Part shown: positions 2,203 through 31,375 of the stretch, one piece after another
Numbering within the stretch: the stretch's first letter is position 1
Layout: each line of letters opens with the position of its first letter
Assembly (NCBI RefSeq): GCF_018598185.1
Contig: NZ_JAHESC010000017.1
Location: 1-64,000, forward strand
Length of the DNA: 64,000 nucleotides
Reading direction: 5' to 3'
Source: Dawidia soli
Lineage (GTDB): Bacteria; Bacteroidota; Bacteroidia; Cytophagales; Cyclobacteriaceae
Translations under genes and position numbers: made by a program
Notes under the pieces: generated by a model
What the model was told of the DNA's origin: nothing
What the model saw: the letters and a program-made list of their open reading frames with translations, nothing else
Database searches by the model: none

Positions 2203-3669
2203 TTAGAAGTATCCGTTGTTTTGTGTCAGCTTTTCGTTCTTATCGCGTTCGTTTTGCGGTATGGGCCAGAACAGTCGGTCTTCCGTTAACGTGTAGCCCA
2301 GGCTGTTGCCGTTTCCGTCGCGGAAGGCATTCATTACTTCAAGCGCTCGTCCGGTGCGTTTCAGATCGTACCAACGCTGCCCTTCAAAGACAAGCTCTAA
2401 GCGACGTTCCTTTTCGATGGCCAGGAGCATATCGGCTTCCGTCGTCGGCGTGATCGGGTCAAGGTCTACGCGGGCACGGATCTCATTTACCAGATCGGCG
2501 GCGGCTTCGAGTTGGCCGTCATGGGTCAACGCTTCGGCCTTCAGCAGCATGATGTCCGCCAGGCGAAACAAAATATAGTTTTGCGTGCCGCTGGTGTTCC
2601 TGTATTTATAGGCATAGGGGAAGTTCGTCAGTGGCCAATAACGGTCCGACCATTTCCCGGTAACATCTGCAAAGCGGATGGATGCATCTCTGCGAATCTC
2701 ATCACCCTCCGCATCAAACGCTGCCACGAGATCGTTGGTGGGTGTATTGAATTTTTTCCAGTCGATGCCGTAGAACATACCCGCGCCCCAGTTGCCTGTG
2801 CCGGCGTCCCAGCCGTCATAGGTTATTTCAAAGATTGCTTCCGATGAATTCTCATGCGTTCCGTCCCACAACTGATCGAACTCCGGCAACAGCTCGAATC
2901 CGGCCGCCAATACTGCATCGGCGTGTTCATGAACTTTATTCCAGTCGTGCGGTTCGATCGTAGCGTATACCTTTGCCAGCAGAAAATGGGCTGTGCTTTT
3001 GGTTACGATGTTCCGGTTAACAGAAGCTGCTCTTGCGTTGGCGACGGCCAGTTCCAGGTCTTGTATGATCTGCTGGTATACGTCGGCTTGCGGCGCGCGT
3101 GCTACGTATATTTTATCCAGATCATCAACGTCCCATTCTGTTATTTCATGTATCAGCAATGGCACGTCACCAAACTGACGCACTAGTTCGAAATACATGA
3201 ATCCACGAATAAATGCGGCTTCACCCTTTATCTCGGCTCTTCTGGCCTCCATCAACGCCGCGTCGGTCACCTCATCGATGTGATCCAGTACCGTGTTCGT
3301 CTTGGCGATCGTGCCATACAGATAACGCCAGTCGCGAAGTACATTATTATTTACCGATTCGATAGCATATTCATCGATCTGAAAATTATTAGGGTTGTCG
3401 GCGCCAGCATAGGCGTTGTCCGACTGTGCGTCACCATTCACATAATAATCCAATTGAAAATATTCATTTCTAAAATCTCCATAACACCCCGCCAGAACGG
3501 CCTCTGCCTGATCTGCTGTTGTGAATCCGGTCGAACCTGGAGTATTCCCTAAATCATCGTTTGTTTGCCTGGAAAGCGGATCTCTTTCCAGGAAATCGTC
3601 GCATCTTTGCAGCAGCATGCCCGTTGTCAACAGCATGCTTATATAGCTATATCGCATTATTTTTTTCAT
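2203..3669 (-). CDS. SusD/RagB-family outer-membrane glycan-binding lipoprotein
   Basis: A 488-residue SusD homologue: the surface lid that captures oligosaccharide and sits over a SusC barrel. The signal peptide ends with Cys23 in LLQRCDDF, a lipoprotein site, followed by the FLERDPLSRQ start common in SusD proteins. TPR-like helices lie around residues 80-250, and the C-terminal RagB/SusD block carries RLADIMLLKAEAL and RRLELVFEGQRWYDLKR, both family hallmarks, ending in LFWPIPQNERDKN. It follows susC by 11 bases and precedes the GH30 gene, so the pair probably imports the products or substrate of that enzyme. No SusE/SusF-type gene is present. Confidence 0.95.
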   Translation of the reverse strand: MKKIMRYSYISMLLTTGMLLQRCDDFLERDPLSRQTNDDLGNTPGSTGFTTADQAEAVLAGCYGDFRNEYFQLDYYVNGDAQSDNAYAGADNPNNFQIDEYAIESVNNNVLRDWRYLYGTIAKTNTVLDHIDEVTDAALMEARRAEIKGEAAFIRGFMYFELVRQFGDVPLLIHEITEWDVDDLDKIYVARAPQADVYQQIIQDLELAVANARAASVNRNIVTKSTAHFLLAKVYATIEPHDWNKVHEHADAVLAAGFELLPEFDQLWDGTHENSSEAIFEITYDGWDAGTGNWGAGMFYGIDWKKFNTPTNDLVAAFDAEGDEIRRDASIRFADVTGKWSDRYWPLTNFPYAYKYRNTSGTQNYILFRLADIMLLKAEALTHDGQLEAAADLVNEIRARVDLDPITPTTEADMLLAIEKERRLELVFEGQRWYDLKRTGRALEVMNAFRDGNGNSLGYTLTEDRLFWPIPQNERDKNEKLTQNNGYF

Positions 3670-3680
3670 GGCTCGTCTGT

Positions 3681-6626
3681 TTAGAATGTAACATTTAGTC
3701 CCAGGATGACCGTTCTCGATTGTGGATAAGTTCCATAGTCGATACCAAGTTCAGTCCCTCTGCCGGTAACGGTTGAATATGCATTCACTTCCGGGTCATA
3801 GCCAGAGTAGTTTGTCCAAGTCAACAGGTTCTGACCCGTGGCATAGACGGACAATTTAGTTATCCCCAATTTCTCAAACTGGCTCGTGTTTACGTTGTAC
3901 GCAAGGGTCACGTTCTTTACACGAAGATAAGAACCATCCTCCACGAATCGTGTCGAATTCCGGATCGCTGCTACACCATAGCCTGCGCGCGGCATATCGG
4001 TATTGCGGTTATTTTCCGTCCAACGATTCAGCACCGCTGTCGATTGGTTCTTTGAATCATACATACCTTCCAGTTCCATGCGCGTTGCGTTGTAAATATC
4101 GTTTCCATAGGACCCCTGCAAGAAGATATTCAAATCGAAACGCTTATACGACAGATTATTGGTCAAGCCGAAGATAAATTTCGGCTGTGCATTGCCAATA
4201 ACCGTGCGGTCGGCATCGTTTAACCCGTTACCGGTAAAATCGCGAAAAAGAGGATTTCCGTTGTCGGGATCTACGCCCTCGTAAACGTAGCCAAAGAATG
4301 TGCCCAGGGAGCTTCCTTCCGTCATCCGAACAAGGTATTGATCGCCGTTGCTATACATCGGCGCATAGTAATACACGTCATTGTAGTTCAGCTCCATAAT
4401 CTTATTCCGGTTCATGGAGATATTAAAGTCCGTTGTCCATCGCAGATCGCTCTCTACGTTAATGGACGATATGGCAAATTCAAGACCTTTGTTCTCTACC
4501 TTACCCGAGTTTCGGCGAAGATAATCGAACCCTGTATAGTAGGGGAATCCCACGTCCAGCAACAAGCCGTCTGTCTTTTTGAGGTAGGCGTCAAACGTAA
4601 AGGTCAATCGCGAATTCAGCACAGAAAGATCGATGCCGATATTTGTCTGTGTTGTTTCCTCCCATTGGATACCCGTGCCGCCCAATGTCGACTCTTTCAC
4701 AAACTCCGGTCCTTGCCCCAGGTCTGATCTGCGACGGAATCCCCATTGCGTATAGTAAGCGTAGTTATTGATGCCTTCCTGGTTTCCATTCTTACCCCAG
4801 CCCGCACGCAACTTCAGGTCGTTGATAAACGTGACACTTTGCATAAACGGCTCTGCCGAAATTCTCCAACCAGCGGATACCGAAGGGAATGTACCCCAGT
4901 GACGGCCAGGAGCAAACTTTGAGGATCCATCCCGGCGTACGGTAGCTGTAAACAGGTATTTACCATCATAGTCATAGTTCACACGTGCCAGCATCGATGC
5001 CAGCGCCCAATCGTTGGCTTCCGTGTAGGCATTCACAATTTGGTTCGCTGCGTTCAACGTTTGTACACCCGGTACACTCGGAAAGTCCTTTGCCTCGATA
5101 AACGTACGTTCCCATGTCGATTCCTGTGCCGTCATACCCGCCAACACGTTCACGTTGTGAACACCGAACGATTTTGTGTAGTTGAATGTATTCTCGCTCA
5201 ACCATGCAAATGTTGTCGATTGATCCGTACGACCGATGCCGTGATTGGCTGGGTCTCTGCCGAATACGGTTCTAAATGGATCCAGGAAATAGTCATTGCG
5301 ATGAATGGTATAGTCCACACCAAAGTTCGTTCGGAAGGAAAGCCCTTCGAGAATCTTCACTTCTGCATTGAGATTGCCAATCAGGCGATCATCGGTTGTG
5401 CCTTCATCGGCACCTTCCATAAATGCGACGGGGTTTTCCCATGAAGGTTGGAAGGGGTTCGGCGCAAATTGTCCGCTGCCGTCCGGATTGTAAATTGTCA
5501 GGAACGGCGGCGTTGTCAATGCACTTAAGATTACACCGCCGCGACCTCCGGCTTTGTTGTCTTCCGTGTTCTTATACTTGGAACGTACGAAGTTGAAATT
5601 CGTACCCATCTTGAGCCACTCCTTCACCTGGTTGTCGAGGTTCAGGCGCAACGTATAGCGGTTATATTCCGATGGATTTATGATGCCTTTGTTGTTGAGA
5701 TAGCCACCCGACACATAGTATTGGCTTTTATCGGTACCGCCGGAATAAGACAACTGGTAGTTTTGAAATGAACCCGTTCCGTAGGTCTCATCCTGCCAAT
5801 TTGTATTCTGCGTGAGCGCCGGATCCACTATCGTGTTGTTGATCTCGCTCATCAGCTCGCGATATTGTTCGGTGTTCAGCACGTCGAGCTTCCTGGTCAC
5901 TTCGGTTACACCGACGTTTGCTAAGAACTGAAGCTGGGGTGTATTGGCTTTACCGCGCTTTGTTGTGACCAGTACCACACCGTTGGCTGCACGGGCACCA
6001 TAGATCGCGGCAGACGAAGCGTCTTTCAATACGCTCATGCTTTCGATGTCATTGGCGTTGATACCTCGGATGTCAGTTGTAGGTACGCCGTCGACTACAT
6101 ACAGGGGCTCGTTGCCGGCTTGTACGGAAGTGGCACCGCGCACGCGAATGGAAATCTCGCCACCCGGCTTGCCGGATGTCTGTGTTACCTGCACACCGGC
6201 CGCTTTACCTTGCAGGGCTTCTGCCGCGGAAGTCAGGGGGCGATCTTTGATGGCGGTTTGGTCGACGATGGCCACCGCTGTGGTCAGATCCTTTTTCCGT
6301 TGGGTACCGTATCCTACCACCACGACCTGTTCGAGAGTGGTCAGGTCTTCTTCCATTTTCACATCGATGACCGAGCGGTTATCTATGGGAATCTCTAAAA
6401 TCTGGTAGCCGATGAACGAAAAGACCAGCGTTCCTTCGATCGCTTCCAGTTTGTAGTTGCCGTCGCCATCGGTGATGGTACCGGTGGTCGTACCTTTTAG
6501 CACGACGTTTACGCCGGGCAGCGACTGGCCATCCGGTGAAGTAACTTTCCCGGAGACGCTGCTGTTTTGGGCCCACAGGGCGGCCGACAACAGCATGCTC
6601 CACAGTAGGAGTAAACCTCTTTTCAT
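3681..6626 (-). CDS. SusC/RagA-family TonB-dependent outer-membrane transporter
   Basis: A 981-residue SusC-like receptor that imports oligosaccharides across the outer membrane using TonB energy. Order: signal peptide (1-19), carboxypeptidase-regulatory-like beta domain (about 22-100, SGKVTSPDGQSLPGVNVVLKG), TonB-box-like EQVVVVGYGTQ (about 99-109), plug domain with the SusC signature PLYVVDGVP and DASSAAIYGARAANGVV, then the 22-strand barrel to the C-terminus, which ends in an aromatic residue (NVTF). First gene of the SusC-SusD-GH30 operon. The base composition looks somewhat more AT-rich than the 40-64 kb part of the window. Regulation probably acts through the 310-base upstream region. 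Confidence 0.96.
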   Translation of the reverse strand: MKRGLLLLWSMLLSAALWAQNSSVSGKVTSPDGQSLPGVNVVLKGTTTGTITDGDGNYKLEAIEGTLVFSFIGYQILEIPIDNRSVIDVKMEEDLTTLEQVVVVGYGTQRKKDLTTAVAIVDQTAIKDRPLTSAAEALQGKAAGVQVTQTSGKPGGEISIRVRGATSVQAGNEPLYVVDGVPTTDIRGINANDIESMSVLKDASSAAIYGARAANGVVLVTTKRGKANTPQLQFLANVGVTEVTRKLDVLNTEQYRELMSEINNTIVDPALTQNTNWQDETYGTGSFQNYQLSYSGGTDKSQYYVSGGYLNNKGIINPSEYNRYTLRLNLDNQVKEWLKMGTNFNFVRSKYKNTEDNKAGGRGGVILSALTTPPFLTIYNPDGSGQFAPNPFQPSWENPVAFMEGADEGTTDDRLIGNLNAEVKILEGLSFRTNFGVDYTIHRNDYFLDPFRTVFGRDPANHGIGRTDQSTTFAWLSENTFNYTKSFGVHNVNVLAGMTAQESTWERTFIEAKDFPSVPGVQTLNAANQIVNAYTEANDWALASMLARVNYDYDGKYLFTATVRRDGSSKFAPGRHWGTFPSVSAGWRISAEPFMQSVTFINDLKLRAGWGKNGNQEGINNYAYYTQWGFRRRSDLGQGPEFVKESTLGGTGIQWEETTQTNIGIDLSVLNSRLTFTFDAYLKKTDGLLLDVGFPYYTGFDYLRRNSGKVENKGLEFAISSINVESDLRWTTDFNISMNRNKIMELNYNDVYYYAPMYSNGDQYLVRMTEGSSLGTFFGYVYEGVDPDNGNPLFRDFTGNGLNDADRTVIGNAQPKFIFGLTNNLSYKRFDLNIFLQGSYGNDIYNATRMELEGMYDSKNQSTAVLNRWTENNRNTDMPRAGYGVAAIRNSTRFVEDGSYLRVKNVTLAYNVNTSQFEKLGITKLSVYATGQNLLTWTNYSGYDPEVNAYSTVTGRGTELGIDYGTYPQSRTVILGLNVTF

Positions 6627-6686
6627 ATTGTTTTAGTTTGGTTGAGTTGTTGAACCAAATTTAGAGGAGTGTTTTCTAATCGCGAT

Positions 6687-6715
6687 ACAACTTACTGATC
6701 GGTAGATAGTTACAA
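6687..6715 (-). promoter_or_regulatory. Candidate Bacteroidota sigma-A promoter of susC
   Basis: On the minus strand a TTG (complement of 6713-6715) is followed after 18 bases by TAAGTTGT (complement of 6687-6694), close to the phylum consensus TTG / TAnnTTTG. It would give a leader of about 50 bases before the susC ATG. The -7 box is imperfect. Confidence 0.35.
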
Positions 6716-6815
6716 AAAATGATACGCTTCAGTCGCAAGTAAAAAATGCCCTTTCTGAGACAGTTTGAGGGATTGCGATCAGAAGCTGAAAGCGGTACTG
6801 ATACGCCAGGAAAAC

Positions 6816-6829
6816 TGCAAACGTTTACG
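6816..6829. promoter_or_regulatory. LacI-type operator-like palindrome
   Basis: TGCAAACGTTTACG matches the general LacI/GalR-family operator pattern (TGnAAnCGnTTnCA) except at the last base, with the central CG dyad intact. It lies about 100 bases upstream of the candidate susC -33 element. No LacI-family gene lies in this window, so the cognate regulator is unknown. Confidence 0.4.
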
Positions 6830-6936: not shown

Positions 6937-8826
6937 TCATTTCTCTTCCTCTACTAAAATGGAATTCCAGCCTTCCCGCAGGTGCAGGGCGCCATGGCGG
7001 CGTCTTTCCTTCATCGTTTTCTTGATGCGCGAACTATAGGTCCAGCAGGTGCTCTGGCGGATGCCGAGGATCTCGGAAAGTTTGTGAGAAGATATGTTTC
7101 CCTGGGAACTGTAAACCAGGAAGATCATGTAAAACGCTTTGTTGATAGGCAATCGGGTGTTCTGCAGCACGGTGTAGGCCGTCACCGACTCGTCGTACCC
7201 GCATTTGGAGCAGCGCCGGCTGTAGGGGCTTTTCCCGGCACTGTACTGTGCGTGACCACATTTACGACAGGCATAATCGTTGTGCCATTTTATGTCGGCC
7301 AGGAACTTCAGGCAGCTATCATCGTCCGGATACATCGCGCTGAATTCTTCGAAGTCTACTTCTTTGGATAGTATGCGGGCTTCTTTGACCTCGGCTACGT
7401 CGTGCTTGAGCTGGTCGTTGTCGCGGGCGAGCAGGATGTTCATGGCGGCGATCTCTTCTGCCTGCCGGGCCAGCCGGACGTTGGCTTCCTCCAACCGGTG
7501 ATTCTGCTCTTCGATGAGCTCTGTCTTTTGTACGATCTGGGCCGTTTTCATCCGCACCTGCTCCTCCAGCTCCTGGTTCAGGCCGTCTTTGAGGCGTTGG
7601 TTTTCGTGCAGCTGTTCGATGGTCTTCTCCTGGGCTTCGGCTTTTTCGATGCGGAGCATGCGAATCTTATCACTGATCGCGAATGACAGGAAAAGCATTT
7701 CGAGGATAAAGCAAAAGCCCAGGCTATAATGTGACAGTTGCCCAAAGGGCATCCACTCGAAGTCAAAATACAACGACACTTTGCTTACCACACCGAATAG
7801 CAGGATGCTATAGCCTATGACCAAAAACCGGGCGGCGGAATAACCTTTGGCCCACCGGTGCACACCGGCGTAGAACGCCACTGCAAATGGTACGATCTCA
7901 ATGAACCGGACGGCAAACCAGTCATGCACGATGAACAGACTTACCAGGAGGAATATGGTCCTGAATGCAAAGGCTCCCAGGATAAGCTTAAATAATGGCG
8001 GCACCTCTTTTCGGAGGTTGAGCACAGACGCTGCAAAGAAAAGCGCAAAGGTCGAGGCAAGGTATAGGGCTATGCCGGGTGCATATTGGTTCCAGGTTAT
8101 TGCCCGCGGCCATAAATATTGAAACGCTATGCCGTCGGCGCTCATTTCGTATACACCGATGCCCACCAGGTAGAGCATGTATAACAGGTAGTGGCTTTCG
8201 CGCACAGCGGCATACATCAGCAGGTTATAAAAAGAGAATACCAGGATCATGCCGTAGAATATGCCAAAGAAGAAATATTCATCCGTAGCATACTCAAACA
8301 GGTAGTCTGCCGAGCGGAGTACCACGATCGCTTCGGCTTGCTGGGCCGAGCGAAGGCGGAAGTAATACGTTACCTCTTCGGCTTTGTCGTTGGCGATGGG
8401 GATGACAAAGTTTTTGTGCTTTAGCGGCCTGGCGGAGAATTCCTGGTGGTCACCGTACCTATTGCGTATGTATCCACGCGAGGTCGGTGTGTAAAAATCA
8501 ATACTGTCTATGGTCTGATCAAAGAATTCAATCACCCAGCGCGTTTGCTGTGTCGGCGCGAGCTTTATTTTCACCCGGTGCCAGTATGCGGCATTTCGGT
8601 GTTTGTTTTCCGGGTTAAAGGTTACACTGGGGTTAAAGCGGCTATTCCAGGCCGGGCTGCTCACATCGTCTATGGTAAGCTTGCCTGAAAGATCTTCGAG
8701 ATATTGAATTTCCTGAAAGGAGAATATGTGTTGCCCCGCTACATTTTCCAGCGCGACGGCGGGTTGAGCCTGGCCAACGTAGCATAGACTCCAACAAGTG
8801 GCAAGGGCAATTAGCTTCTTCTTCAT
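6937..8826 (-). CDS. 7TM-DISM membrane sensor fused to coiled coil and transposase-type zinc ribbon
   Basis: A 629-residue protein with an unusual layout. Signal peptide (1-20); periplasmic 7TMR-DISMED2-like beta domain (about 30-175, YWHRVKIKL, RNRYGDHQEF); seven transmembrane helices (about 184-386); long coiled coil (391-485); a four-cysteine zinc ribbon (Cys520, Cys523, Cys539, Cys542) resembling the IS1595-type transposase N-terminal domain, including preceding FEEFSAMYPDDDSCLKFL; then a helix-turn-helix-like tail (about 575-605, SHKLSEILGIRQSTCWTYSSRI). 7TM-DISM receptors sense extracellular, often carbohydrate, ligands. A zinc ribbon plus HTH in place of a kinase or cyclase suggests direct DNA binding from the membrane. 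It lies just upstream of the Sus operon in the same direction, so regulation of that operon is a reasonable inference. No DDE nuclease is present, so it is not a transposase. Confidence 0.85.
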   Translation of the reverse strand: MKKKLIALATCWSLCYVGQAQPAVALENVAGQHIFSFQEIQYLEDLSGKLTIDDVSSPAWNSRFNPSVTFNPENKHRNAAYWHRVKIKLAPTQQTRWVIEFFDQTIDSIDFYTPTSRGYIRNRYGDHQEFSARPLKHKNFVIPIANDKAEEVTYYFRLRSAQQAEAIVVLRSADYLFEYATDEYFFFGIFYGMILVFSFYNLLMYAAVRESHYLLYMLYLVGIGVYEMSADGIAFQYLWPRAITWNQYAPGIALYLASTFALFFAASVLNLRKEVPPLFKLILGAFAFRTIFLLVSLFIVHDWFAVRFIEIVPFAVAFYAGVHRWAKGYSAARFLVIGYSILLFGVVSKVSLYFDFEWMPFGQLSHYSLGFCFILEMLFLSFAISDKIRMLRIEKAEAQEKTIEQLHENQRLKDGLNQELEEQVRMKTAQIVQKTELIEEQNHRLEEANVRLARQAEEIAAMNILLARDNDQLKHDVAEVKEARILSKEVDFEEFSAMYPDDDSCLKFLADIKWHNDYACRKCGHAQYSAGKSPYSRRCSKCGYDESVTAYTVLQNTRLPINKAFYMIFLVYSSQGNISSHKLSEILGIRQSTCWTYSSRIKKTMKERRRHGALHLREGWNSILVEEEK

Positions 8827-9740: not shown

Positions 9741-10631
9741 TTATGATTCGGCGAGTATTTCCAAGAACTGTTGTTCCAGGCTTTTCTGGCGGGTGACCAG
9801 GTGTGAGGCGACGATATCTTTCTCAAAGAGAAAGCGATTGAGGTCGGCTGCTTTGTACTGCTCACGCAGCTGCACCTGAAAACTGCCGTTTTCACGATTG
9901 ACAGAGGATGTACCCGGGAAGGCCAGCAGCACGTGTGACAAGTCGGGAGCGTTGGCTTTTACTTCTACGGTCTCCGTGCCCTTGCCGACGTCATGTACGG
10001 GCCCATGGTGTATCAATGTGCCTTTCTTCAAAATAGCAAAGTGTGTACATACACGTTGTACTTCGTCGAGTAAGTGGCTGGCCAGGATGATCGTCTTTCC
10101 TCCTGCTGCAATCCGAATGATCAGCTCACGAATGCCTGCAATGCCCATGGGGTCCAAACCGTTGGTGGGCTCATCGAGGATCAGCACGTCTGGATCGTTC
10201 AACAGCGCCGAGGCAATCGCGAGGCGTTGCTTCATGCCCAGCGAGTACGTTTTGTAGGCATCGTGTTGGCGTTCCGTTAGCTCTACCAATGCCAGTACGT
10301 TGTCAATGTTTGCGACCGGGCACTGTTTGATCATGGCATTGAGCTCGAGATTTTTCCGGCCGCTGAGGTATGGATAGAAGATCGGATGTTCCAGCACAGC
10401 GCCGATCCGTCTGCGCATGTGGTCGGTCGGTGGCTGGCCAAACCAGGAGAAACTGCCGGCCGTGGGGTTTACTACGCCCATGAGCATCCCCAAGGTCGTT
10501 GTTTTGCCGCTGCCATTGGGCCCCAGCATTCCGAATACCTGCCCGGCTTTTACTTGCAAGCTTATGTTGTTGACGGCTTGTATGCGGCCGAAGTTCTTGC
10601 CGAGGTTATTTATCGCCAGTACGGTTTCCAC
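9741..10631 (-). CDS. ABC transporter ATP-binding protein
   Basis: A 296-residue ATPase for the permease encoded next. Walker A is GPNGSGKT (37-44), the signature is YSLGMKQR (129-136), and Walker B is VLILDEP (149-155), followed by NGLDP and the switch histidine in ILASHLLDE. The last 80 residues form the C-terminal extension common in ABC-2 exporters of the antibiotic/bacitracin-resistance type. Substrate unknown. It begins 57 bases after a DUF4252 gene and may be co-transcribed with it. Confidence 0.93.
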   Translation of the reverse strand: METVLAINNLGKNFGRIQAVNNISLQVKAGQVFGMLGPNGSGKTTTLGMLMGVVNPTAGSFSWFGQPPTDHMRRRIGAVLEHPIFYPYLSGRKNLELNAMIKQCPVANIDNVLALVELTERQHDAYKTYSLGMKQRLAIASALLNDPDVLILDEPTNGLDPMGIAGIRELIIRIAAGGKTIILASHLLDEVQRVCTHFAILKKGTLIHHGPVHDVGKGTETVEVKANAPDLSHVLLAFPGTSSVNRENGSFQVQLREQYKAADLNRFLFEKDIVASHLVTRQKSLEQQFLEILAES

Positions 10632-10688
10632 CAGTTGAATCGGTTAGTGCTTTTATCTGTAGGTGTCTATAATACGGCTGGCAATACA

Positions 10689-11198
10689 TCACTGGCCATC
10701 TTTATTTGTAAAATTTTTGATCTTCTCGCCGATCTCACTGTTTTCATTTACCGTACGGTAAAGGCTACTGATCTTGTCCATGGCGATCCGTCCGAGGATA
10801 TCGAGTACAAACAGGTTCTCTGCATCGTTGACCAATACGAGCATGCCTTTTGTTACACCGTTCTTTTCTTTTACGAACACATCAAAGTTTTTCCCCTGGT
10901 AACGGCTGGACATCATTTCTTCGAATTGCTCGGTTTTATAGTCTGCCACCAGCTTTTGATAATCATTTATCGAAAAACCGTTTGCCTTTTTGATCATCAG
11001 GAACCGCATCTTTTCTATATCTTCGATCAGGGCATCGAAGTCCTTGTCGTTCGTCTGGTTAAGCATGCGGAGTGTATTGTTATAGAAAAACAAGGTCAGG
11101 GCGTCGCTATGTTTCTTATACAGCGCTTCGGTCACCGGGCTTTGGGCATTGGCCCAGCCTACAGCTGCCAGCAGCAGGAGTGTTATGATGTATCGCAT
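10689..11198 (-). CDS. DUF4252 family exported protein (copy 2)
   Basis: A 169-residue protein with a clear signal peptide (1-18, ending ANAQ). The rest is a compact mixed fold typical of DUF4252, a Bacteroidota family of unknown function often found beside ECF sigma factors. It is a paralogue of the upstream gene: both carry F-E-E-[LM]-M-S-x-R and a following ExGxxxxLVxxxxxxxxFxxxxxxGxI pattern. I see no lipobox, so the product is probably periplasmic. It follows the other copy after 123 bases that hold a palindromic repeat. Confidence 0.8.
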   Translation of the reverse strand: MRYIITLLLLAAVGWANAQSPVTEALYKKHSDALTLFFYNNTLRMLNQTNDKDFDALIEDIEKMRFLMIKKANGFSINDYQKLVADYKTEQFEEMMSSRYQGKNFDVFVKEKNGVTKGMLVLVNDAENLFVLDILGRIAMDKISSLYRTVNENSEIGEKIKNFTNKDGQ

Positions 11199-11275
11199 AA
11201 GAGGTTGTTGATTGTATAGACAGTTGTTGTGGGAGCAGATACGCCCGTCTGGAGACTAGCGGACGTCACGGTGGA

Positions 11276-15739: not shown

Positions 15740-17197
15740 ATGTTCGCGCTTACTCCCAAACTCGCCTTATTGATCGTTCTGTATTCCATCACGTTGTTTA
15801 CGGTCGTACGCATTATTATGGATTCGCGGAATCCTTCGAAGGCGTTGGGCTACCTGGTGCTGGCCATTACTGTACCGGTCGTTGGAGCGATCGTTTATTT
15901 TTCGTTTGGGGTCAATTATCGCAAAAAGCGGATCTATAATAAGAAGCTGATTGCCAATGACCGGTTATTGCAGCGCATCCGGGAGCGGATCATTACCACT
16001 ACGCACCAGATCCTGGAAAGCAACCGGCATAAGCTCGACGGCCAGCGGGATATGGTCAACTTACTGCTAAACGATTCGTTCGAGCCATTGTCATCCAACA
16101 AGGTCAAATTATTGATCAACGGCGAGTCCAAGTTTCCGGAAGTACTTGCCGAGCTCGAACTGGCTACGCAAACGATTCACCTCGAATATTATATTTATGA
16201 GGACGATGTTGTCGGCAATCAGCTAAAGGAGGTGCTGATCCGGAAAGCGCGCGCGGGTGTAAAGGTGCGGTTCGTCTATGACGACTTTGGCAGCAAGGGG
16301 TTGAAGCGGAAGTTTTTTCGCGACATGGATGCCGCGGGCGTCGAGTCGTTTCCGTTCTTTAAGGTGCACCTGCCGTTTATCGCCAGCCGGTTAAACTATC
16401 GCAATCACCGGAAGATCATCGTCATCGATGGCCATGTAGGTTTTGTGGGTGGTATCAATGTAGCCGATCACTATGTCAACGACCGCCCCGGGCAATCGTT
16501 ATTCTGGCGCGACACCCATATTAAGATCTCGGGGCCGGCAGTCCAAAGCCTGCAGTATCACTTTCTGGCCGACTGGAATTTCTGCTCACAACAGGATCTG
16601 CACCCCGACACCACGATCTTCCCGGATTCCGCCAGAATGCCTAAGGGCGATTCGCTGGTACAAATTGTAGCGAGCGGGCCAGACTACCCGCGGGCGAGTA
16701 TCATGCTGTGTTATTTTACAGCGATCGTCAATGCCCGGAAACGGGTATATATCACTTCACCCTATTTCATCCCCAACAACAGCATCAACGACGCGATCAA
16801 AAAAGCGGCGCTTAGCGGGAAGGACGTGCGCCTGCTTGTCCCACTGGAGGCGGACTTACGGTTTGTCAATGCCGCTTCGCGCTCATATTACGAAGAATTG
16901 CTGGAATGTGGTGTGAAGATCTACCGCTACAAAAAGGGGTTTGTGCACGCCAAGACTATAGTGGCGGACGATAACCTGGCTATCGTCGGTACGGCCAATA
17001 TCGACTTCCGTAGCTTTGAATTTAACTTTGAGGTAGGTGCTGTAGTCTATGGGGAGCGGGTCTGCGCGGAGCTTACGGCCCAGTTCCTGGAAGATCAGGC
17101 CCAAAGCGAAGAGCTTTCGTTGGAGATGCTTACATCCCGCAGCTGGTTCCATCATGTTGTGGATAAAGCGGCCCGATTGTTTTCGCCCCTGTTGTGA
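15740..17197 (+). CDS. cls: Cardiolipin synthase (phospholipase D superfamily)
   Basis: A 485-residue membrane enzyme that condenses two phosphatidylglycerols to cardiolipin and glycerol. Two N-terminal transmembrane helices (about 6-26 and 36-56, the PLDc_N region) are followed by two HKD active-site motifs: His223-Lys225-Asp230 in NHRKIIVIDG and His403-Lys405-Asp410 in VHAKTIVADD, each followed by the usual GGIN and GTANID. Length matches bacterial ClsA. Divergent from the vWA gene. Confidence 0.94.
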   Translation: MFALTPKLALLIVLYSITLFTVVRIIMDSRNPSKALGYLVLAITVPVVGAIVYFSFGVNYRKKRIYNKKLIANDRLLQRIRERIITTTHQILESNRHKLDGQRDMVNLLLNDSFEPLSSNKVKLLINGESKFPEVLAELELATQTIHLEYYIYEDDVVGNQLKEVLIRKARAGVKVRFVYDDFGSKGLKRKFFRDMDAAGVESFPFFKVHLPFIASRLNYRNHRKIIVIDGHVGFVGGINVADHYVNDRPGQSLFWRDTHIKISGPAVQSLQYHFLADWNFCSQQDLHPDTTIFPDSARMPKGDSLVQIVASGPDYPRASIMLCYFTAIVNARKRVYITSPYFIPNNSINDAIKKAALSGKDVRLLVPLEADLRFVNAASRSYYEELLECGVKIYRYKKGFVHAKTIVADDNLAIVGTANIDFRSFEFNFEVGAVVYGERVCAELTAQFLEDQAQSEELSLEMLTSRSWFHHVVDKAARLFSPLL

Positions 17198-22675: not shown

Positions 22676-25600
22676 TCATATTACCCATTCCGGCGTCTTT
22701 ACTGTAATGCGCACGGCGTGACTGGCCTTGTCGTCCAGCAGGTTTATATAGTGGCCCTCCTGGCGCACATTGTCTACCCATACTTCGATCTCTTCGCCCC
22801 CTGGTACCCGGTCGAGCTGCAGGGTGTAGATCGTGTCGTGGAACCGATATTGCATACTTACAGAAGGCCATTCGGCCGGCAAGCAGGGTGTTATCAGCAG
22901 GCGGTCACCCTGGCGTTTTAAACCAAAGAACCACTCAATGATCAGCTGATATACCCAGCCCGCCGAACCTGTGTACCAGGTCCAGCCGCCGCGGCCTTCG
23001 TGTGGTGCGACCCCATAAACGTCTGCCGCGATGACATAGGGCTCCGCTTTGTACACCGCAATCTCTTTCGGGTTGCGTCCGTGGTTTAGCGGGTTGATCA
23101 TGTCGAGCAGCTCCCATGTGCGTTGATGGTCGCCCAATTTCGCAAAGGCCATGATCATCCACACAGCGGCATGTGTATATTGGCCGCCGTTCTCGCGCAC
23201 ACCGGGTACATAGCCTTTTATATAGCCCGGGTCTTTTTCTGACTTGTCAAACGGAGGATCGAGTAGCTGGATCAGGGCACGATCACGCCGTACCAGATCT
23301 TTGTTTACGGCTTCCATGGCTGTCTGCGACCGGTCGGGATCGCCTCCTTCCGACAATACGGACCAGCTTTGTGAGATCGAGTCTATACGGCATTCTGTAT
23401 TGCGTGAGGAGCCGAGCGGTGTGCCATCGTCGTAATACGCCCGCACGTACCAGCCGCCGTCCCACGCGTTGTCGTGTATATTTCGTTTCAATTGCAGCGC
23501 CTGGTGTGCGCACTCGCCCGCGAAGGCAGCGTCGTTGCGCGCGCGCGCAAGCGCTTCTGTACGCCTCAACACATCATACAGGAAGAATGCCAGCCATACG
23601 CTTTCGCCCTTGCCATGGATCCCTACCATGCTCATGCCGTCGTTCCAATCGCCGGAACCAATGAGGGGCAATCCGTTCGCACCGAATTGCAGGCCTCTGC
23701 GCACGGCGCGGCGACAGTGCTCATAGAGGCTTGCGCGTTCGTCGGACACCGCCGGCAGATCATAGTAAGACTCTTCCTGCATGTTCAGCGGGCGGCCTTC
23801 CAGGAAGGATACTTCTTCGTCCAGGATGGCGATATCGTCTGTCGCTTCCACGTACCGGCTTACGGCAAAGGGCAGCCACAGGAAGTCGTCGGAGCATTGC
23901 GTACGAACCCCGCGGCCCAGCGGCGGGTGCCACCAGTGCTGCACATCGCCTTCGCGGAACTGGCGCGAGGCGGCCAGCAAGATCTGCTGCCGTGTTAGGG
24001 CCGGCGCTGCATGTACCAGCGCCAGCACGTCCTGCAGCTGATCGCGGAAGCCGAAGGCACCTCCCGATTGATAGAAGCCGCTTCGACCCCACAGGCGCGA
24101 AGACATGACCTGGTATAACAGCCAGCCATTGGTCAATATATTCAGTGCACTGCTGGGCGTTTGGATGCTGACCGATGACAACGTGTGATTCCAATATTGA
24201 TGTACGCGTGCCAGCGCCTCCCGTGCCGCTTTAGCCCCCTTGAATCTGCGAACGGTTTCTGTTGCTTCAAACATGGTACGGCCGCCGCCGAGTCGGAAAA
24301 CGATTTCCTGCTCGGCACCATCTTCCAGTTCCAACGGCACCTGTATCGCGGCGCAAGGATCGAGACCGGCACCTGCTTTCCCGGACAGGTATTGGCGGCG
24401 CATGGCGTCAGGTTGTTGCAACGTACCGTTCCGGCCCAGGAATTCCTGTCTGTCGGTGGTATAGGTATAGGTTGAAGCGTCTACGTCCAGGAATGCTGCA
24501 TAGTTGGAGAATTCCGTACTGTAGGCATTTTTAGCGATGATTGCGCGTGTTGTCACATCCTGTTCTGCGACGACGTGCAGGAGTGATTTCTCCCGCAGAT
24601 CGGCCAGTACCCACTCGACATAGGCGGTGGCACTCAGTTTGCGGGAACGTCCGGATATGTTCCGGATCTTTAACGTTGTAAATTTCACGGACGCTTCCCG
24701 GTCGACATAAATCCATACTTCGGTGCTTACGCCATCGTACTGGTGTTCAAACACCGTATACCCAAAGCCGTGGCGTGTGGTGTATACCGGGCCGGCCGTA
24801 GCGGGCTGTGGTGTGGGTGACCAGTAGCGACCTGTGTCTTCGTCGCGTATGTAGAACGCTTCACCGGCGCGGCCGGTAACCGCATCGTTATACCAGGGTG
24901 TAAGCCGGTATTCGTGCGCATTTTCTATCCAGGTGTACGACGGGCCGCTTTCGGTCACGACCGTGCCAAAGTGATTGTTCGCGATAACGTTGATCCAGGG
25001 CAGGGGCGTGTGCGTGTCCGAGCTGGTGCGGATCACGTATTCGCGTCCGTCGGCGGTAAAGCCGCCGTGGCCGTTGAAGAACTGCAACGGCGGCGCCTCC
25101 GTTGTTTCCTCCGCCACGGCGGGCGGGCCGGGCCGGGCCTGCAAATACGCAATGCCAGGCTTTGGCAACGAGCGGCGTTTGATCTGCTCGGCCAGACTTC
25201 CGCGCGTGTCGGATATGATCACGCGGGCGATCGTTTGGAGCAGCACCCAATCTTCTCCCGACACCTGGTCGGCCGAGCGGATAAATATTCCACCCTGGCG
25301 CCCGGAGTTCATCCCGACGCCGGCGGCGATCAGGCTTTGTATCTGATCTTGCAATACCTGGCGGTATCCGGTGTGGTCTTCGTTTAAGATCACCAGGTCC
25401 ACGGCCAGGCCTTTTAGTTGCCAGTATGCATGAGCTTGTACCATCTGCCGGGCGAGTGCCACGTTGGTGGAATCTGACAGACGAAGTAATACGATCGGCA
25501 GGTCGCCCGATATAGCGTATGCCCACAACGCCGACTGGCCGCGTTGGTTTCGCACCTGCACGGTGCGGCTGGCACGCAGCGTGGGGTTGGCATAGATTAC

Positions 25601-28600
25601 GGCGCTGGCCAGGCGCCCGAATAATTGGGCATCGCCTTCGGTGGCGTTGATCTGCCGTAGCACTACCTGGCTATGCGTCCATGACAACTCAAATGCACGG
25701 TCGCGCAGGTACGGGTCCTGGTACTTGTCTACGAGGATTTTTATCTCTTCGCGTGTCCTGGCCATGCCGGTGACGATATCGAAGGTGACGTTTTCTCCGG
25801 GTGGCAATGTGATGCGGTATTGTACCGATACAACGGGGTCTAAAACAGACCCTTGCGAGTTACTCAACGGTTCGTGCATGCGCATCACCCGCGGGTTGGC
25901 CAGGGTGTGGCCGCGTCCGATAAATTTGTCGCGGTCGGTTTCGTAGGCTACGGTATCGATGCCTTGCCCGATCACCTTCATCATGTGCAGCATCCACGGT
26001 GGCTGCTCGTCGTGGCTGCGCGCGCGGCGCGTAGCCAGTATGGCATGCTGCGACTCTTCGATGGATGTCTGCACAAACAGGTTGCTAAAAGCGGGATGGG
26101 CGGCATCGGCAATGGGTGCCGCCAGGACTACTTCGGCATAGCTCGTGACCTCTATACGGCGTTTGCGACCGGACCGGTTTATTATATGTATGCGGCGGAT
26201 CTCGATATCGTCCTCGGGCGATACGATGATCTCTGTATGGGTTTCGATGTCGAGGTCACGGCGGCGGTATTCTACGCGCCCCTGCGAGAACACAGCTTCG
26301 TAACGTTCGGCGGGCCGCAATACGGGTTGATGGGCTGTCGACCAACAGGCATCACGATCCAGGTCGCGGATATAGCAGAACATGCCCCAGTTGTCGCAGG
26401 TAGTGTCTTCACGCCAGCGAGTCACGGCTACCTCTTTCCAACGGCTGTAGCCTCCGCCGGCGTTCGTGAGCATAACGTGGTACCGGCCGTTCGAAAGCAG
26501 CTGCACTTCAGGCACCGGCGTGTCCGCCGTGTTGATAACGCGCATTTCGGGTACGGCCGGTGTGAGTGTAACTTCCTGCATTTCGGTCGCCGCCGAGTAG
26601 AAGCTCGTGGTGCGCGGTACCCGCTCCTGCAGCAGCAACAATACCGTCTGGCATTGCGGATCCGCTTCGAACCTTTTTTGCATGGGCTGGTCGAGCAGTA
26701 CATAGGCCAGCGACAGCAGGCCCATGCCCTGGTGGTGGGCCATGAAGGTTTGGATCAGTACCCGCGATTGTCCGCGGGGCAGGCGCGCGGGAGTATAATC
26801 CGCAGCTTCGAAGAACCCGTACTGGCCTTCAAAGCCCTGGTCGCGCAGTGTAGCCAGGTTGTTGTACGCTTCTTCGGGGGCTACCATCAGCGCCATGACG
26901 GTGGCATAGGGTGCAATGACGAGGTCGTCGCCGAGGCCGCGTTTAAAACCCAGGCCCGGTACACCAAAGGCCCTGTATTGATACGTGAGATGTGCGTCTA
27001 CTACGTTATAGCACGATTCTGATATACCCCAGGGTACATTGTGCTGGCGGCCGTACTCTATCTGTCGTTGTACGGTGCCGCGCATGGTCTCGTCGAGCAG
27101 GGTGTTGTGGTAGCTCGGCATGACCAGCATTGGCATGAGGTATTCGAACATCGAGCCGCTCCACGACAACAGCACCGGCGTGTGGCCAGCCGTTGTCAGG
27201 CGACGCCCCAGTGCAAACCAGCTCTTTTGCGGCAGCTTGCCTTGTGCAATGCCCACGAAAGTAGCCAGGCGTGCTTCGGAAGCCAGCAGGTCGTAATAGC
27301 TTGCATCGGCACGGTGGCTTTCGACATTGTAGCCGATGGTCAGCAGGTGTTGTGATCTATCGTACAGGAAATCGTACTCCATGTCGGCCAGGTAGGCACA
27401 TTGTTCGCCGAGATCGGCGATGCGCGCCAGCTGCCGACGGCTATACGTCGCGGCGGCGTGCAGGGTGGTTCGGAACTGGTCTGCCCACGCCATTTCTTCG
27501 GGCGTCAGCATTTTCCCAGACAGTCGTGCGATCTCCTCTTCCACGAGGTGTTCGGCCTGTATAACCTGTGCGAACGTCGGCACGTCCGCCAGTAAGCTCA
27601 TTTCCTGAAACTTCGCCGGGGGCGGGCCGATGGCTAACCAGGGTGCTACTGCATCCATCTCCGTTAAGAACGTTTGAATTTGTTTGTCAAATACAACGAT
27701 CCACCGGTGTGTCTCCGTGCGCGCATCGAGCCGATTTAACACTGCCGTTCCCTTTATGCGCACCTGGCTCAGAAGCGTGCGCAGCGCATCCAACGTCAGG
27801 AATTCCTTTTGAAGCATTTGTGCAAGCTCCCGGGCAATACTTTGGTATATACCCCGGTGTATTTCGGGAAGCTTTTGCAGTATGATCCGCACGGTATCGT
27901 GCAGACCCGCCAGTACGTGCCGCTCGATCACTTTCCGATCGGGCATTTGTAGCAATCCCTGGCGCAGCGTGATCAAATGCCCGGCCAGGTTGCCGCTGTC
28001 GACCGTGGACACGTAGCGTGGGTGCAGCACCTGTAAGCTTTGTGTATCGTACCAATTGTAGAAGTGGCCTTTGTAACGTTCCAGGCGGTTGAGGGTTGAG
28101 AACGTATGTTCTGTACGTTGCAGAAACTGCGTAGCGGGGATATAACCAAAGTCCACCGCTGTAAGGTTGGCCAGTAGCGACAGGCCTATATTGGTCGGCG
28201 ACGTACGATGGGCCACCACGGGTATAGGATATTGCTGCAGGTTGTCGGGAGGCAGCCAGTTGTCTGGTTCCGCCACAAGATCTTCAAAGAAGGCCCACGT
28301 CTTGCGTGCCAGCTCACGCAGGGTGTCCTGGCGCTCCGCGCTCAGCTCGCCGGAAACCGTCGGCAGGGGTTGGTTCAACCACCAGACGATGGCCGGTGCC
28401 AGCGCCCACACCAACAGGAACGGCGCCGCCGCTACCCATGCCGTGGGGTTCCAATGCAGGATGGCTGCGCTCGTGGCGAAGGCAACCAGCGGCGAAATGA
28501 ACATGGAGAGGTACGTTTCCGGAAGTGTTTCCGGGCGGCCGCTTTGCATAAAGCCCGAGGGGTTCCATTCGAGCAACCGCCGGCGGCTGATCATCATGCG

Positions 28601-31375
28601 CCATCCGGTGCGCACAATGGCGTCAAGACTGATCAGGGCTTCGTATGGCAGGCATACGATGGTAAAGGCTGCCTGTGCCAGCGTGTGGTAGGTGCTACGT
28701 ATGTTGTTTATGAGGTGCTGGCGGAGTTTGATCTCCGCAGGTTTATGCATCAGGCCCCACGCCGATACCGCCAGGGCCGGGAATACGATGACGCCCGTTA
28801 CGCATACGGTCCAAAACCAGGTTGCCGGCAAGACCAGCCATGCGAGCAGATAGAAGACCATCATGGCTATTGGTACAACGCTGCGGCGCAGGTTGTCGAA
28901 TATCTTCCAGCGTGCGAGGGCGTTCAGTGGGTTGCCGATGAACCGCCCCTTGGCGTCGGGGATCCATGGCAACGACCAGCTTCCTATCTGCCAGTCACCG
29001 CGGATCCAGCGATGTCGCCGGCTGACGTCTACGCTGTAACGCGACGGATATTCTTCATAGAACTGTACGTCGCTTGCGTAGCCACACCGGGTGTAGGAGC
29101 CTTCCAGCAAGTCATGGCTGAGAATACGGTTTTCGGGGAAGCGGTTGTTTAACACCTTCTCGAAGGTGTCGACATGGTAGATGCCTTTTCCAATAAACGA
29201 CCCTTCATTGAAGACGTCCTGGTATACATCCGACACCATTTTGGTATAGGGGTCGATGCCGGAGTCGTTTTCATGCATGCGCGTATACCGCGTGCGTGTG
29301 GCGCCGTGTAAGCTGATAGCAATGCGGGGCTGGATGATGCTATAGCCTTGTACCACGCGGCGCTTCTTGTCGCTGTACTGGGGTTGGTTTAACGGGTGCG
29401 CCATCGTGCCTACCAGGCTCCATCCGGCGTCGCGCGGCAATTGGGTATCGGTATCCAGGGTGATGACATATTGTACGGTCTTATAAAGATACTCCTCCCC
29501 GACAATCACAGAGAATCTGTTCTTCGCTCCGCCGCGCAACAGTTGATTGAGCTCCGAGAGCTTGCCCCGCTTGCGCTCGTATCCCATCCATACTTTCTCC
29601 ACGGAGTTCCACAAGCGGGGGCGGTGAAAGAGAAAGAAGGTATCGTTGACATCCCGGTTATATTTTTTATTGAGGGCGATGACGCCGTCCCGGGCGATCT
29701 GTACCAGCAGTGGGTCGGCGGGCAGGTTTTGTTGGTCGGAATCTTTTAAGTCCGTCAGAAGTCCGAAGAGTAAATTGGGGTCACGGTTGGCCAGGTAGCG
29801 TACCTCGAGGTCCTCCAGCAACTTCTCGACCTGGCGCGGATTGACCAATAGCGTGGGGACCACGACCAGGGTTCGGTTCTCTTCGGGTATCCCTCCCGAA
29901 AAGTCCATTTTGGGCAACTGACAGGGTTTGACGGATAGTGTTGACAGCCAGTTGACGATGGCGAGCGCAATCTGACTGGCACATACCAATGCGACAATAC
30001 CCGTTACCAGCCACCATCCCCACGCAACGTTACGGGAGAACCCGCCTTCTACTCCTATTGCCATCACCAGCAGGGTCAACGCGGTGGTTCCGATCACATA
30101 CCAGGCGTAGCGGCGCCGTGCGGTCCAGCGACGCATGCCTTCGGCAGCGGTCAGCCTGATGCGCACGGCGGCTTCGGTCTTCTTTACTCCTTCTCCTATC
30201 AGGTAATACCCGACGTGCAACGTCCGTACGTCGCGTGTGCCCCCGGCGTGTTCCTTTGCGAATTCGAGCGCGATGCGCGCCACTTCGTATTCGGCGGCGC
30301 CGCTTTGTTTGGCAATTCGCTCTACGGTATGGCGATATTGATCACGGGTGTGAAAATCCATGTTGGCGTATACCGCCGCGGGGTCGGCACGCAAAGTCTG
30401 TTCCACCATACTCATGGTTTCGACAAACTCGCGCCAGTCGGTCTTTACCAGGAAGCGCAGGCTGCTGATGCTGTTGCTCATCGATACCTGGTCGGCGGCT
30501 TGTTTTTGGTTTTCCTCCTGCACCAGCGCGTTGATGGTCTGTCCGCTCTCGGAAAGGTTTTGCTCGATCCACGAGGCCGGCAGCGTCAGGTCCGGTCCTT
30601 TCCATTGCAGCTTGCGTGTAAACGCCGCCACAAAGGCGCTGACCATCGGCGGGTTGGAACGGGCCATGTCGGCGATGTCGAGCACCAGATCTTTGGGATG
30701 TTTCTCGGCCGTCTCCAGAATGCGCTGGGCCCAGTCGTTGGCGAGGTCTTCGTCTGCACGGTCGATGGCGATGCGTGCCGCAACGCGGCTGAGGTTTTCG
30801 AGTAACGCCAGGCGCAGCATGATCGGTACGGCCCACAGCTCGCCCAATGTCAGGTAGCTGAGCTTCTGATAGGCGGCGATGAAGCTGCTGAGGCTGTGCA
30901 TGTCCACATGGCCGTCGCTGTGCGCGATGATCTCGATCGCGATGTCGTATACCCGGGGCAGGCCGGCAGACTTGCCTTTTTCCAGCCGCGGTAAACCTTT
31001 GCTGTAGCCCTTGGGCAGGTGGCGTTTGGCCAGGCGTATCTGTTCTTCGATGAGATAGAAGTTGTCGAGCAGCCACTCCCCTGCCGGCGTTATGATCTTC
31101 TTTTCTTTAACGGCGTCCTGTAACAGCCGGGTTACCTGGAATAACACGTCTTCGTTCACGGCCAGGCGGCCCAGCAACAGCTCGGGAGTTTTGTTGCCTG
31201 TGAGTTTGTGCGTGCCTGCCAGAAATTGTGCGTGCTGATCCATTTGCTCCGCGCTGAAAAGCTCCGATCGCAAGGGCGGCTTTTCGTTTACATCCTGACG
31301 GTTAATACCGTCTCGCTGCAGGTACTGGCGCAACTGGGAGAAAAACTCTTCGATGGACGTTGTATTTACCTTCAT
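22676..31375 (-). CDS. ndvB: Cyclic beta-1,2-glucan synthase (NdvB/ChvB-like)
   Basis: A 2899-residue inner-membrane enzyme, the full length of rhizobial and Brucella cyclic glucan synthases. Order: N-terminal region (1-415), two transmembrane helices (about 421-477), GT84-type glycosyltransferase (about 500-800) with LDTDTQLPRD near 637-646, four further membrane helices (about 828-1000), a glycoamylase-like block (about 1330-1620, SQHLLTIGYN, GFKRGLGDDLVIAPYAT), two GH94-type beta-sandwich modules (about 1625-1900 and 2110-2400), and a GH94 catalytic barrel (about 2420-2830) with the general-acid motif DWND at 2576-2579 in GSGDWNDGM. In the known family it makes a protein-linked beta-1,2-glucan from UDP-glucose, cyclises it and trims its length by phosphorolysis; products are periplasmic and osmoregulated. 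No dedicated exporter (NdvA) is in the window. Confidence 0.93.
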   Translation of the reverse strand: MKVNTTSIEEFFSQLRQYLQRDGINRQDVNEKPPLRSELFSAEQMDQHAQFLAGTHKLTGNKTPELLLGRLAVNEDVLFQVTRLLQDAVKEKKIITPAGEWLLDNFYLIEEQIRLAKRHLPKGYSKGLPRLEKGKSAGLPRVYDIAIEIIAHSDGHVDMHSLSSFIAAYQKLSYLTLGELWAVPIMLRLALLENLSRVAARIAIDRADEDLANDWAQRILETAEKHPKDLVLDIADMARSNPPMVSAFVAAFTRKLQWKGPDLTLPASWIEQNLSESGQTINALVQEENQKQAADQVSMSNSISSLRFLVKTDWREFVETMSMVEQTLRADPAAVYANMDFHTRDQYRHTVERIAKQSGAAEYEVARIALEFAKEHAGGTRDVRTLHVGYYLIGEGVKKTEAAVRIRLTAAEGMRRWTARRRYAWYVIGTTALTLLVMAIGVEGGFSRNVAWGWWLVTGIVALVCASQIALAIVNWLSTLSVKPCQLPKMDFSGGIPEENRTLVVVPTLLVNPRQVEKLLEDLEVRYLANRDPNLLFGLLTDLKDSDQQNLPADPLLVQIARDGVIALNKKYNRDVNDTFFLFHRPRLWNSVEKVWMGYERKRGKLSELNQLLRGGAKNRFSVIVGEEYLYKTVQYVITLDTDTQLPRDAGWSLVGTMAHPLNQPQYSDKKRRVVQGYSIIQPRIAISLHGATRTRYTRMHENDSGIDPYTKMVSDVYQDVFNEGSFIGKGIYHVDTFEKVLNNRFPENRILSHDLLEGSYTRCGYASDVQFYEEYPSRYSVDVSRRHRWIRGDWQIGSWSLPWIPDAKGRFIGNPLNALARWKIFDNLRRSVVPIAMMVFYLLAWLVLPATWFWTVCVTGVIVFPALAVSAWGLMHKPAEIKLRQHLINNIRSTYHTLAQAAFTIVCLPYEALISLDAIVRTGWRMMISRRRLLEWNPSGFMQSGRPETLPETYLSMFISPLVAFATSAAILHWNPTAWVAAAPFLLVWALAPAIVWWLNQPLPTVSGELSAERQDTLRELARKTWAFFEDLVAEPDNWLPPDNLQQYPIPVVAHRTSPTNIGLSLLANLTAVDFGYIPATQFLQRTEHTFSTLNRLERYKGHFYNWYDTQSLQVLHPRYVSTVDSGNLAGHLITLRQGLLQMPDRKVIERHVLAGLHDTVRIILQKLPEIHRGIYQSIARELAQMLQKEFLTLDALRTLLSQVRIKGTAVLNRLDARTETHRWIVVFDKQIQTFLTEMDAVAPWLAIGPPPAKFQEMSLLADVPTFAQVIQAEHLVEEEIARLSGKMLTPEEMAWADQFRTTLHAAATYSRRQLARIADLGEQCAYLADMEYDFLYDRSQHLLTIGYNVESHRADASYYDLLASEARLATFVGIAQGKLPQKSWFALGRRLTTAGHTPVLLSWSGSMFEYLMPMLVMPSYHNTLLDETMRGTVQRQIEYGRQHNVPWGISESCYNVVDAHLTYQYRAFGVPGLGFKRGLGDDLVIAPYATVMALMVAPEEAYNNLATLRDQGFEGQYGFFEAADYTPARLPRGQSRVLIQTFMAHHQGMGLLSLAYVLLDQPMQKRFEADPQCQTVLLLLQERVPRTTSFYSAATEMQEVTLTPAVPEMRVINTADTPVPEVQLLSNGRYHVMLTNAGGGYSRWKEVAVTRWREDTTCDNWGMFCYIRDLDRDACWSTAHQPVLRPAERYEAVFSQGRVEYRRRDLDIETHTEIIVSPEDDIEIRRIHIINRSGRKRRIEVTSYAEVVLAAPIADAAHPAFSNLFVQTSIEESQHAILATRRARSHDEQPPWMLHMMKVIGQGIDTVAYETDRDKFIGRGHTLANPRVMRMHEPLSNSQGSVLDPVVSVQYRITLPPGENVTFDIVTGMARTREEIKILVDKYQDPYLRDRAFELSWTHSQVVLRQINATEGDAQLFGRLASAVIYANPTLRASRTVQVRNQRGQSALWAYAISGDLPIVLLRLSDSTNVALARQMVQAHAYWQLKGLAVDLVILNEDHTGYRQVLQDQIQSLIAAGVGMNSGRQGGIFIRSADQVSGEDWVLLQTIARVIISDTRGSLAEQIKRRSLPKPGIAYLQARPGPPAVAEETTEAPPLQFFNGHGGFTADGREYVIRTSSDTHTPLPWINVIANNHFGTVVTESGPSYTWIENAHEYRLTPWYNDAVTGRAGEAFYIRDEDTGRYWSPTPQPATAGPVYTTRHGFGYTVFEHQYDGVSTEVWIYVDREASVKFTTLKIRNISGRSRKLSATAYVEWVLADLREKSLLHVVAEQDVTTRAIIAKNAYSTEFSNYAAFLDVDASTYTYTTDRQEFLGRNGTLQQPDAMRRQYLSGKAGAGLDPCAAIQVPLELEDGAEQEIVFRLGGGRTMFEATETVRRFKGAKAAREALARVHQYWNHTLSSVSIQTPSSALNILTNGWLLYQVMSSRLWGRSGFYQSGGAFGFRDQLQDVLALVHAAPALTRQQILLAASRQFREGDVQHWWHPPLGRGVRTQCSDDFLWLPFAVSRYVEATDDIAILDEEVSFLEGRPLNMQEESYYDLPAVSDERASLYEHCRRAVRRGLQFGANGLPLIGSGDWNDGMSMVGIHGKGESVWLAFFLYDVLRRTEALARARNDAAFAGECAHQALQLKRNIHDNAWDGGWYVRAYYDDGTPLGSSRNTECRIDSISQSWSVLSEGGDPDRSQTAMEAVNKDLVRRDRALIQLLDPPFDKSEKDPGYIKGYVPGVRENGGQYTHAAVWMIMAFAKLGDHQRTWELLDMINPLNHGRNPKEIAVYKAEPYVIAADVYGVAPHEGRGGWTWYTGSAGWVYQLIIEWFFGLKRQGDRLLITPCLPAEWPSVSMQYRFHDTIYTLQLDRVPGGEEIEVWVDNVRQEGHYINLLDDKASHAVRITVKTPEWVI

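Follow-up and report, generated by a model that had tools for sequence, protein, structure and literature searches.

In Bacteroides, the regulators of polysaccharide-utilization loci (PULs) are of three types, namely SusR-like proteins, hybrid two-component systems (HTCS) and extracytoplasmic function (ECF)/anti-sigma systems, as set out in PMC3878776. Here we describe a gene, named Q, at positions 6937-8826 (minus strand) of the window, that is, of the whole 64,000-nucleotide stretch of Dawidia soli contig NZ_JAHESC010000017.1 that was analysed. Most probably Q acts from the membrane as a one-component transcription regulator for a PUL of the beta-glucan type, with a SusR-like layout and an unrelated output domain derived from a transposase. 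Because it joins a sensor to a transposase-type tail, and because many of its relatives lie beside sugar-uptake genes that are accompanied by a matching doubled DNA target, it is very likely a previously undescribed kind of gene switch for the use of complex sugars.

SusR-like regulators, as presented in PMC3878776, are membrane proteins with a periplasmic sensor and a cytoplasmic DNA-binding domain, encoded beside susCD, and Q would share this layout if its tail binds DNA. The sites predicted for them are direct repeats whose centres are separated by 67 or 77 bp; the boxes of the Q family, which are also predicted sites, are separated by 65-92 bp. The difference lies in the protein, since the presumed SusR, identified solely by its place beside GH97-susC-susD-susF, is a DUF6377 protein with no ribbon match and no BLASTP similarity to Q. 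HTCS are chimeric PUL sensors as well, and four relatives of Q carry the Reg_prop/Y_Y_Y sensor. However, at E <= 1 Pfam lists no histidine kinase, receiver or AraC helix-turn-helix (HTH) for Q, and these are not among the families listed for the four relatives either. HTCS sites are reported in PMC3878776 as direct repeats about 21 bp apart.

The sensory half of Q is that of the 7TMR-DISM receptors, with DISMED2 and seven-transmembrane (7TM) domains both above the Pfam cut-offs, but its output is a transposase-derived ribbon-HTH instead of a kinase, a cyclase or the like. With the IS1595-family transposases Q shares the N-terminal ribbon and HTH over 124 aligned columns; unlike them it has no catalytic domain, and its module is joined to a membrane sensor. 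The InsA protein of the insertion sequence (IS) IS1 acts as a transcription regulator with a zinc finger and HTH common to a transposase (PMC12428005); it is soluble, still belongs to an IS and represses its own element, and its likeness to Q would be one of function. A 7TMR-DISM protein with a ChiS-type DNA-binding domain is pictured in PMC8092284. Literature searches on PF12760 or transposase zinc ribbons, and on 7TMR-DISM with a zinc ribbon and transposase, from which subscription papers and preprints were excluded, found no paper.

Domain architecture of Q

The open reading frame of Q encodes 629 amino acids (aa) and was assigned by Pfam, NCBIfam and alignment; all its features lie on the minus strand. 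After an N-terminal signal peptide comes the periplasmic sensor domain 7TMR-DISMED2 (residues 39-170, positions 8317-8712; Pfam E 1.7e-31, 109.4 bits against a cut-off of 22). It is followed by the seven-helix region 7TMR-DISM_7TM (residues 183-387, positions 7666-8280; Pfam E 8.1e-40, 137.4 bits against 29), with hydrophobic stretches between residues 184 and 388. A coiled-coil-like helical linker (residues 392-484, positions 7375-7653) was read from the sequence and from the conservation among orthologs. The IS1595-type four-Cys zinc ribbon (residues 500-544, positions 7195-7329) was located by Pfam (Zn_ribbon_IS1595, PF12760; 28.1 bits against 25.4, E 2e-6), the alignment of its cysteines, a genome scan and AlphaFold2. 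Finally, NCBIfam, hhalign and AlphaFold2 delimit an IS1595-transposase HTH (residues 556-611, positions 6994-7161) with predicted helices at 561-573, 580-587 and 591-610. Residues 556-611 match positions 1-57 of the 215 in NF033547 (IS1595 transposase) with E 8.7e-7, at 29 bits and so under the whole-protein cut-off of 75. In the AlphaFold2 model of residues 480-629 (mean predicted local distance difference test 85, predicted template modelling score 0.79), the ribbon region contains short strands, after which come the three helices.

An earlier note on this DNA, made from the letters alone, had proposed a 7TM-DISM receptor fused to a transposase-type ribbon (Cys520/523/539/542) and HTH, placed upstream of a Sus operon. 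The profile searches that it suggested for the membrane and C-terminal regions gave the matches above, and this architecture can now be considered established, on firmer ground than when it was proposed; neither of the two outcomes that the note named as refuting was observed.

Origin and conservation of the ribbon-HTH tail

When the profile of the Q tails was compared with a profile of seven transposases, hhalign returned a probability of 99.9% and an E of 4.5e-34 over the 124 columns. The aligned part corresponds to transposase residues 12-135 and ends just short of the catalytic part, whose first Asp is residue 144. The DDE-type catalytic domain has no match in Q: the NF033547 match stops at position 57 and the protein ends 18 residues further on, so Q is not a transposase. 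As judged from these comparisons, the ribbon-HTH of Q goes back to the DNA-binding N-terminus of a transposase of the IS1595 type, and the takeover of a transposon module by a membrane sensor, also put forward in the earlier note, is thereby supported. The whole genome that carries Q has two PF12760 matches, each in a 7TM protein, so no IS1595 transposase with such a ribbon was found there.

A tree was built from 100 ribbon-HTH modules (93 of them different) with midpoint rooting. All 71 7TM-fused and four propeller-fused rows (75 in total, 69 different) formed one group with an SH-like approximate likelihood ratio test (SH-aLRT) value of 94, slightly below 95, the value that the program marks with a star. 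This sensor-fused group is adjoined by nine transposase rows, and the remaining transposases lie further out; many forks are not resolved because only 136 columns were available. The tree fits a single capture, without proving it.

The relatives used below are the best 80 of 122 from a scan of genome contigs, giving 80 loci with 81 Q genes from Cytophagales, Chitinophaga, Pedobacter, Mucilaginibacter and Solitalea. The four cysteines are kept in 84/84 aligned rows, a set that includes the query, L001 as its copy from the same genome, the paralog L002 and a fragment of 171 aa. Among 41 family members scanned with Pfam, 7TMR-DISM_7TM was present in all, and PF12760 reached E <= 1e-3 in 32 and not in the other 9. 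With the tail as query, 77/295 genomes of the class and 173/390 of the order gave a match, counts that include true transposases of about 300 aa; among the matches listed for the order, many belong to frames some 600-700 aa long, and at least 10 matches fall in some of the genomes. Mean identity over the 80 orthologs was highest in the HTH (82%), followed by the ribbon (65%), the 7TM region (54%), the coiled coil (49%) and DISMED2 (42%).

These data bear on whether the tail could be an inactive relic, left when an IS1595 insertion truncated a 7TM receptor. Its transposase origin would agree with such an event, but the HTH is the most conserved region among orthologs, the four cysteines are invariant, the fused form occurs in several families, often in multiple copies per genome, and no catalytic remnant follows residue 611 in Q. 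We therefore regard a relic as extremely unlikely.

The paralog in the same genome stands before a second susC-susD pair, with a different box, of the ATGTTTTT type, and with a PF10091 glycoamylase gene just upstream (L088:7944-9842 and 9850-11229); we presume, as a guess, that its locus serves GH144-type beta-1,2-glucan use (GH, glycoside hydrolase family). Compared with Q, the paralog keeps 11/50 residues of the HTH (22%), 24/57 of the ribbon and 86/203 of the 7TM region. An HTH that is best kept among orthologs, yet divergent in a paralog with another box, is what would be expected of a DNA-reading head that changed its target.

In addition, four tail-bearing frames of 997-1068 aa have Reg_prop and Y_Y_Y beta-propeller sensors in place of the 7TM region (L157:2806-6012, L158:2903-5896, L166:2875-5910 and L185:7526-10573). 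PF12760 is above its cut-off in two of them, below it in one (19.6 bits) and unlisted in one, and all four match the profile made from Q tails. The frame in L157 directly precedes susC-susD. Two further observations concern the 7TM-fused members: in L127/L202 (G487:C19) one stop codon interrupts a Q copy, with the exact box pair and susC still downstream, and in L164 and L174, from related genomes, a second 7TM protein (668 and 656 aa) adjoins Q on the opposite strand.

Putative target genes and candidate operator

The susC-like TonB-dependent transporter (3681-6626), the susD-like lipoprotein (2203-3669) and the GH30 glycosidase (695-2155), all recognized by Pfam, lie downstream of Q on the same strand, begin after a gap of 310 bp and are its putative targets. 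Over the 81 Q genes, the next same-strand gene was susC in 40 cases, GH30 in 15 and another gene in 18, the remaining 8 having an opposite-strand neighbour; susC came next for 11/982 other non-edge genes of the same loci (genes were called by our own greedy choice of open reading frames). The expectation that homologues sit beside SusC thus holds for a large part of the family. It has to be set against this that the link is not universal: in 41 further loci picked for diversity, of which at least one (L147) comes from the same genome as one of the 80, susC was within 1.5 kb downstream in 17. Other putative targets nearby include GH3, GH16 and GH5, which suggests that the Q-linked loci serve beta-glucan use.

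When the Q-to-susC gaps were aligned, a box with GCGTATCA at its end stood out, conserved in two copies of the same orientation. In the window, the gap alignment and pattern counts place copy 1, TTGCAGTTTTCCTGGCGTATCA, at 6799-6820 and copy 2, TTGCGACTGAAGCGTATCA, at 6720-6738, both on the minus strand, as a candidate operator. A relaxed pair pattern, [GC]CGTAT[CT][AG] twice as a direct repeat 70-100 bp apart and no more than 1.8 kb after Q, was present in 65/80 loci with spacings of 77-92 bp, against 7 occurrences elsewhere in 1.63 Mb with both strands counted; when the pattern was scrambled in four ways, there was no match after Q and 1 to 7 elsewhere. Its presence depended on the next gene: 39/40 for susC, 15/15 for GH30, 10/17 for other genes and 1/8 for opposite-strand neighbours. 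Within the 7.48 Mb genome the exact pair has a single occurrence, at window 6720-6806 (control 0). A single loose box is unspecific (15 matches against 8). Overall, a blind repeat test was significant, but most loci taken singly, and the window itself, did not reach significance.

Of the 7 pairs elsewhere, four precede a GH30 gene or a gene of 771 aa by 119-390 bp, the latter being GH3 where it was scanned, in L033. The second pair before the 771-aa gene (L033 near 16526-16610 and L075 near 16571-16666, 119-127 bp before it) suggests a wider regulon. The pair pattern was also tried as a genome-wide marker and discarded. In the order it gave 24 matches in 23/380 genomes (control 9), of which 15 became loci, 3 of them between Q and susC; in a second family it gave 27 matches in 25/151 genomes (control 6), of which 7 stand between Q and susC and another 4 precede susC or GH30 by no more than 1.5 kb. 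The rest are thus mostly unexplained or due to chance.

The boxes differ in other subfamilies. Those of subfamily C are of the TTTAARTG type, with a spacing of 80-81 bp in 7/7 gaps (0-3 of 500 shuffles); those of subfamily B are of the ATGTTTTT type, with a spacing of 65-66 bp in 6/8 gaps (4-19 of 500 shuffles in those six). These shuffle figures are flattered because the patterns were written after the alignments were seen. In a fourth subfamily the written pattern was found in 1/10 gaps only, and two conserved blocks exactly 80 bp apart were found in 7/10. The candidate operator and the regulator change together across the subfamilies of Q. Inverted repeats beside related IS1595-type transposases (L239, L240, L242, L103) hold CACTT or CATTTAA, which are complementary to the core AAGTG/TTAAATG in the boxes of one subfamily.

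Zinc ribbons can also bind proteins or RNA, and the weak top Foldseek matches of the tail are ribosomal zinc ribbons (E about 1), so the tail might be a protein- or RNA-binding module and the doubled boxes might be read by another regulator. We hold this to be improbable, given that the boxes differ by subfamily, vanish where no target follows Q (the 1/8 noted above), and that HTH divergence tracks box divergence in the paralog of the same genome.

Proposed mode of action

According to the model that we favour, the periplasmic DISMED2 and 7TM regions would sense a glycan breakdown product, and the coiled coil would pass the signal downward, pairing or repositioning two cytoplasmic ribbon-HTH heads. 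These heads, which presumably hold zinc, would bind the two conserved boxes, direct repeats that precede susC with a spacing of about 80 bp, and most likely activate transcription of susC-susD-GH30, since the boxes lie upstream of a promoter-like box. The latter is TAAATTTG at 6656-6663 (minus strand), 64 bp after the start of the copy-2 core, a match to TAnnTTTG, which we take to be the Bacteroidota -7 box consensus. TAnnTTTG was found in only 20 of the 55 loci listed, with copy 2 about 50-79 bp upstream of it. Such a position, upstream of the promoter-like box and not on it, favours activation over the opposite arrangement, in which Q would repress the locus until released by its ligand; repression has a precedent in the truncated IS1 transposase InsA, a zinc-finger/HTH repressor (PMC12428005), and for Q we judge it unlikely. 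Many relatives have a further conserved stretch, ATCAGT.AGTT, after copy 2 and before the promoter-like box (window about 6670-6715, minus strand).

Beyond Q itself, a broader scenario may be proposed, to which we give even chances. One capture of an IS1595 transposase N-terminus would stand at the origin of a large class of membrane regulators in Bacteroidota, which would form a fourth type of PUL regulator beside SusR, HTCS and ECF/anti-sigma, with a later sensor swap from 7TM to beta-propeller, multiplication within genomes, and paired operators whose AAGYG-like core would come from the terminal inverted repeats of the ancestral IS. In eukaryotes, transposase DNA-binding domains are well known as host transcription factors. 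A bacterial one set on a transmembrane sensor, with an operator readable by phylogenetic footprinting, would be unusual if true, and it would name a candidate regulator for many PULs of Cytophagales and Sphingobacteriales. Whether transposon ends can be the inherited source of operators is likewise a question that the Q family opens to direct test.

Elsewhere in the window, positions 22676-31375 (minus strand) encode a protein of 2899 aa that combines the supersandwich and catalytic domains of GH94 with a glycoamylase domain and that we take to resemble the cyclic beta-1,2-glucan synthases.
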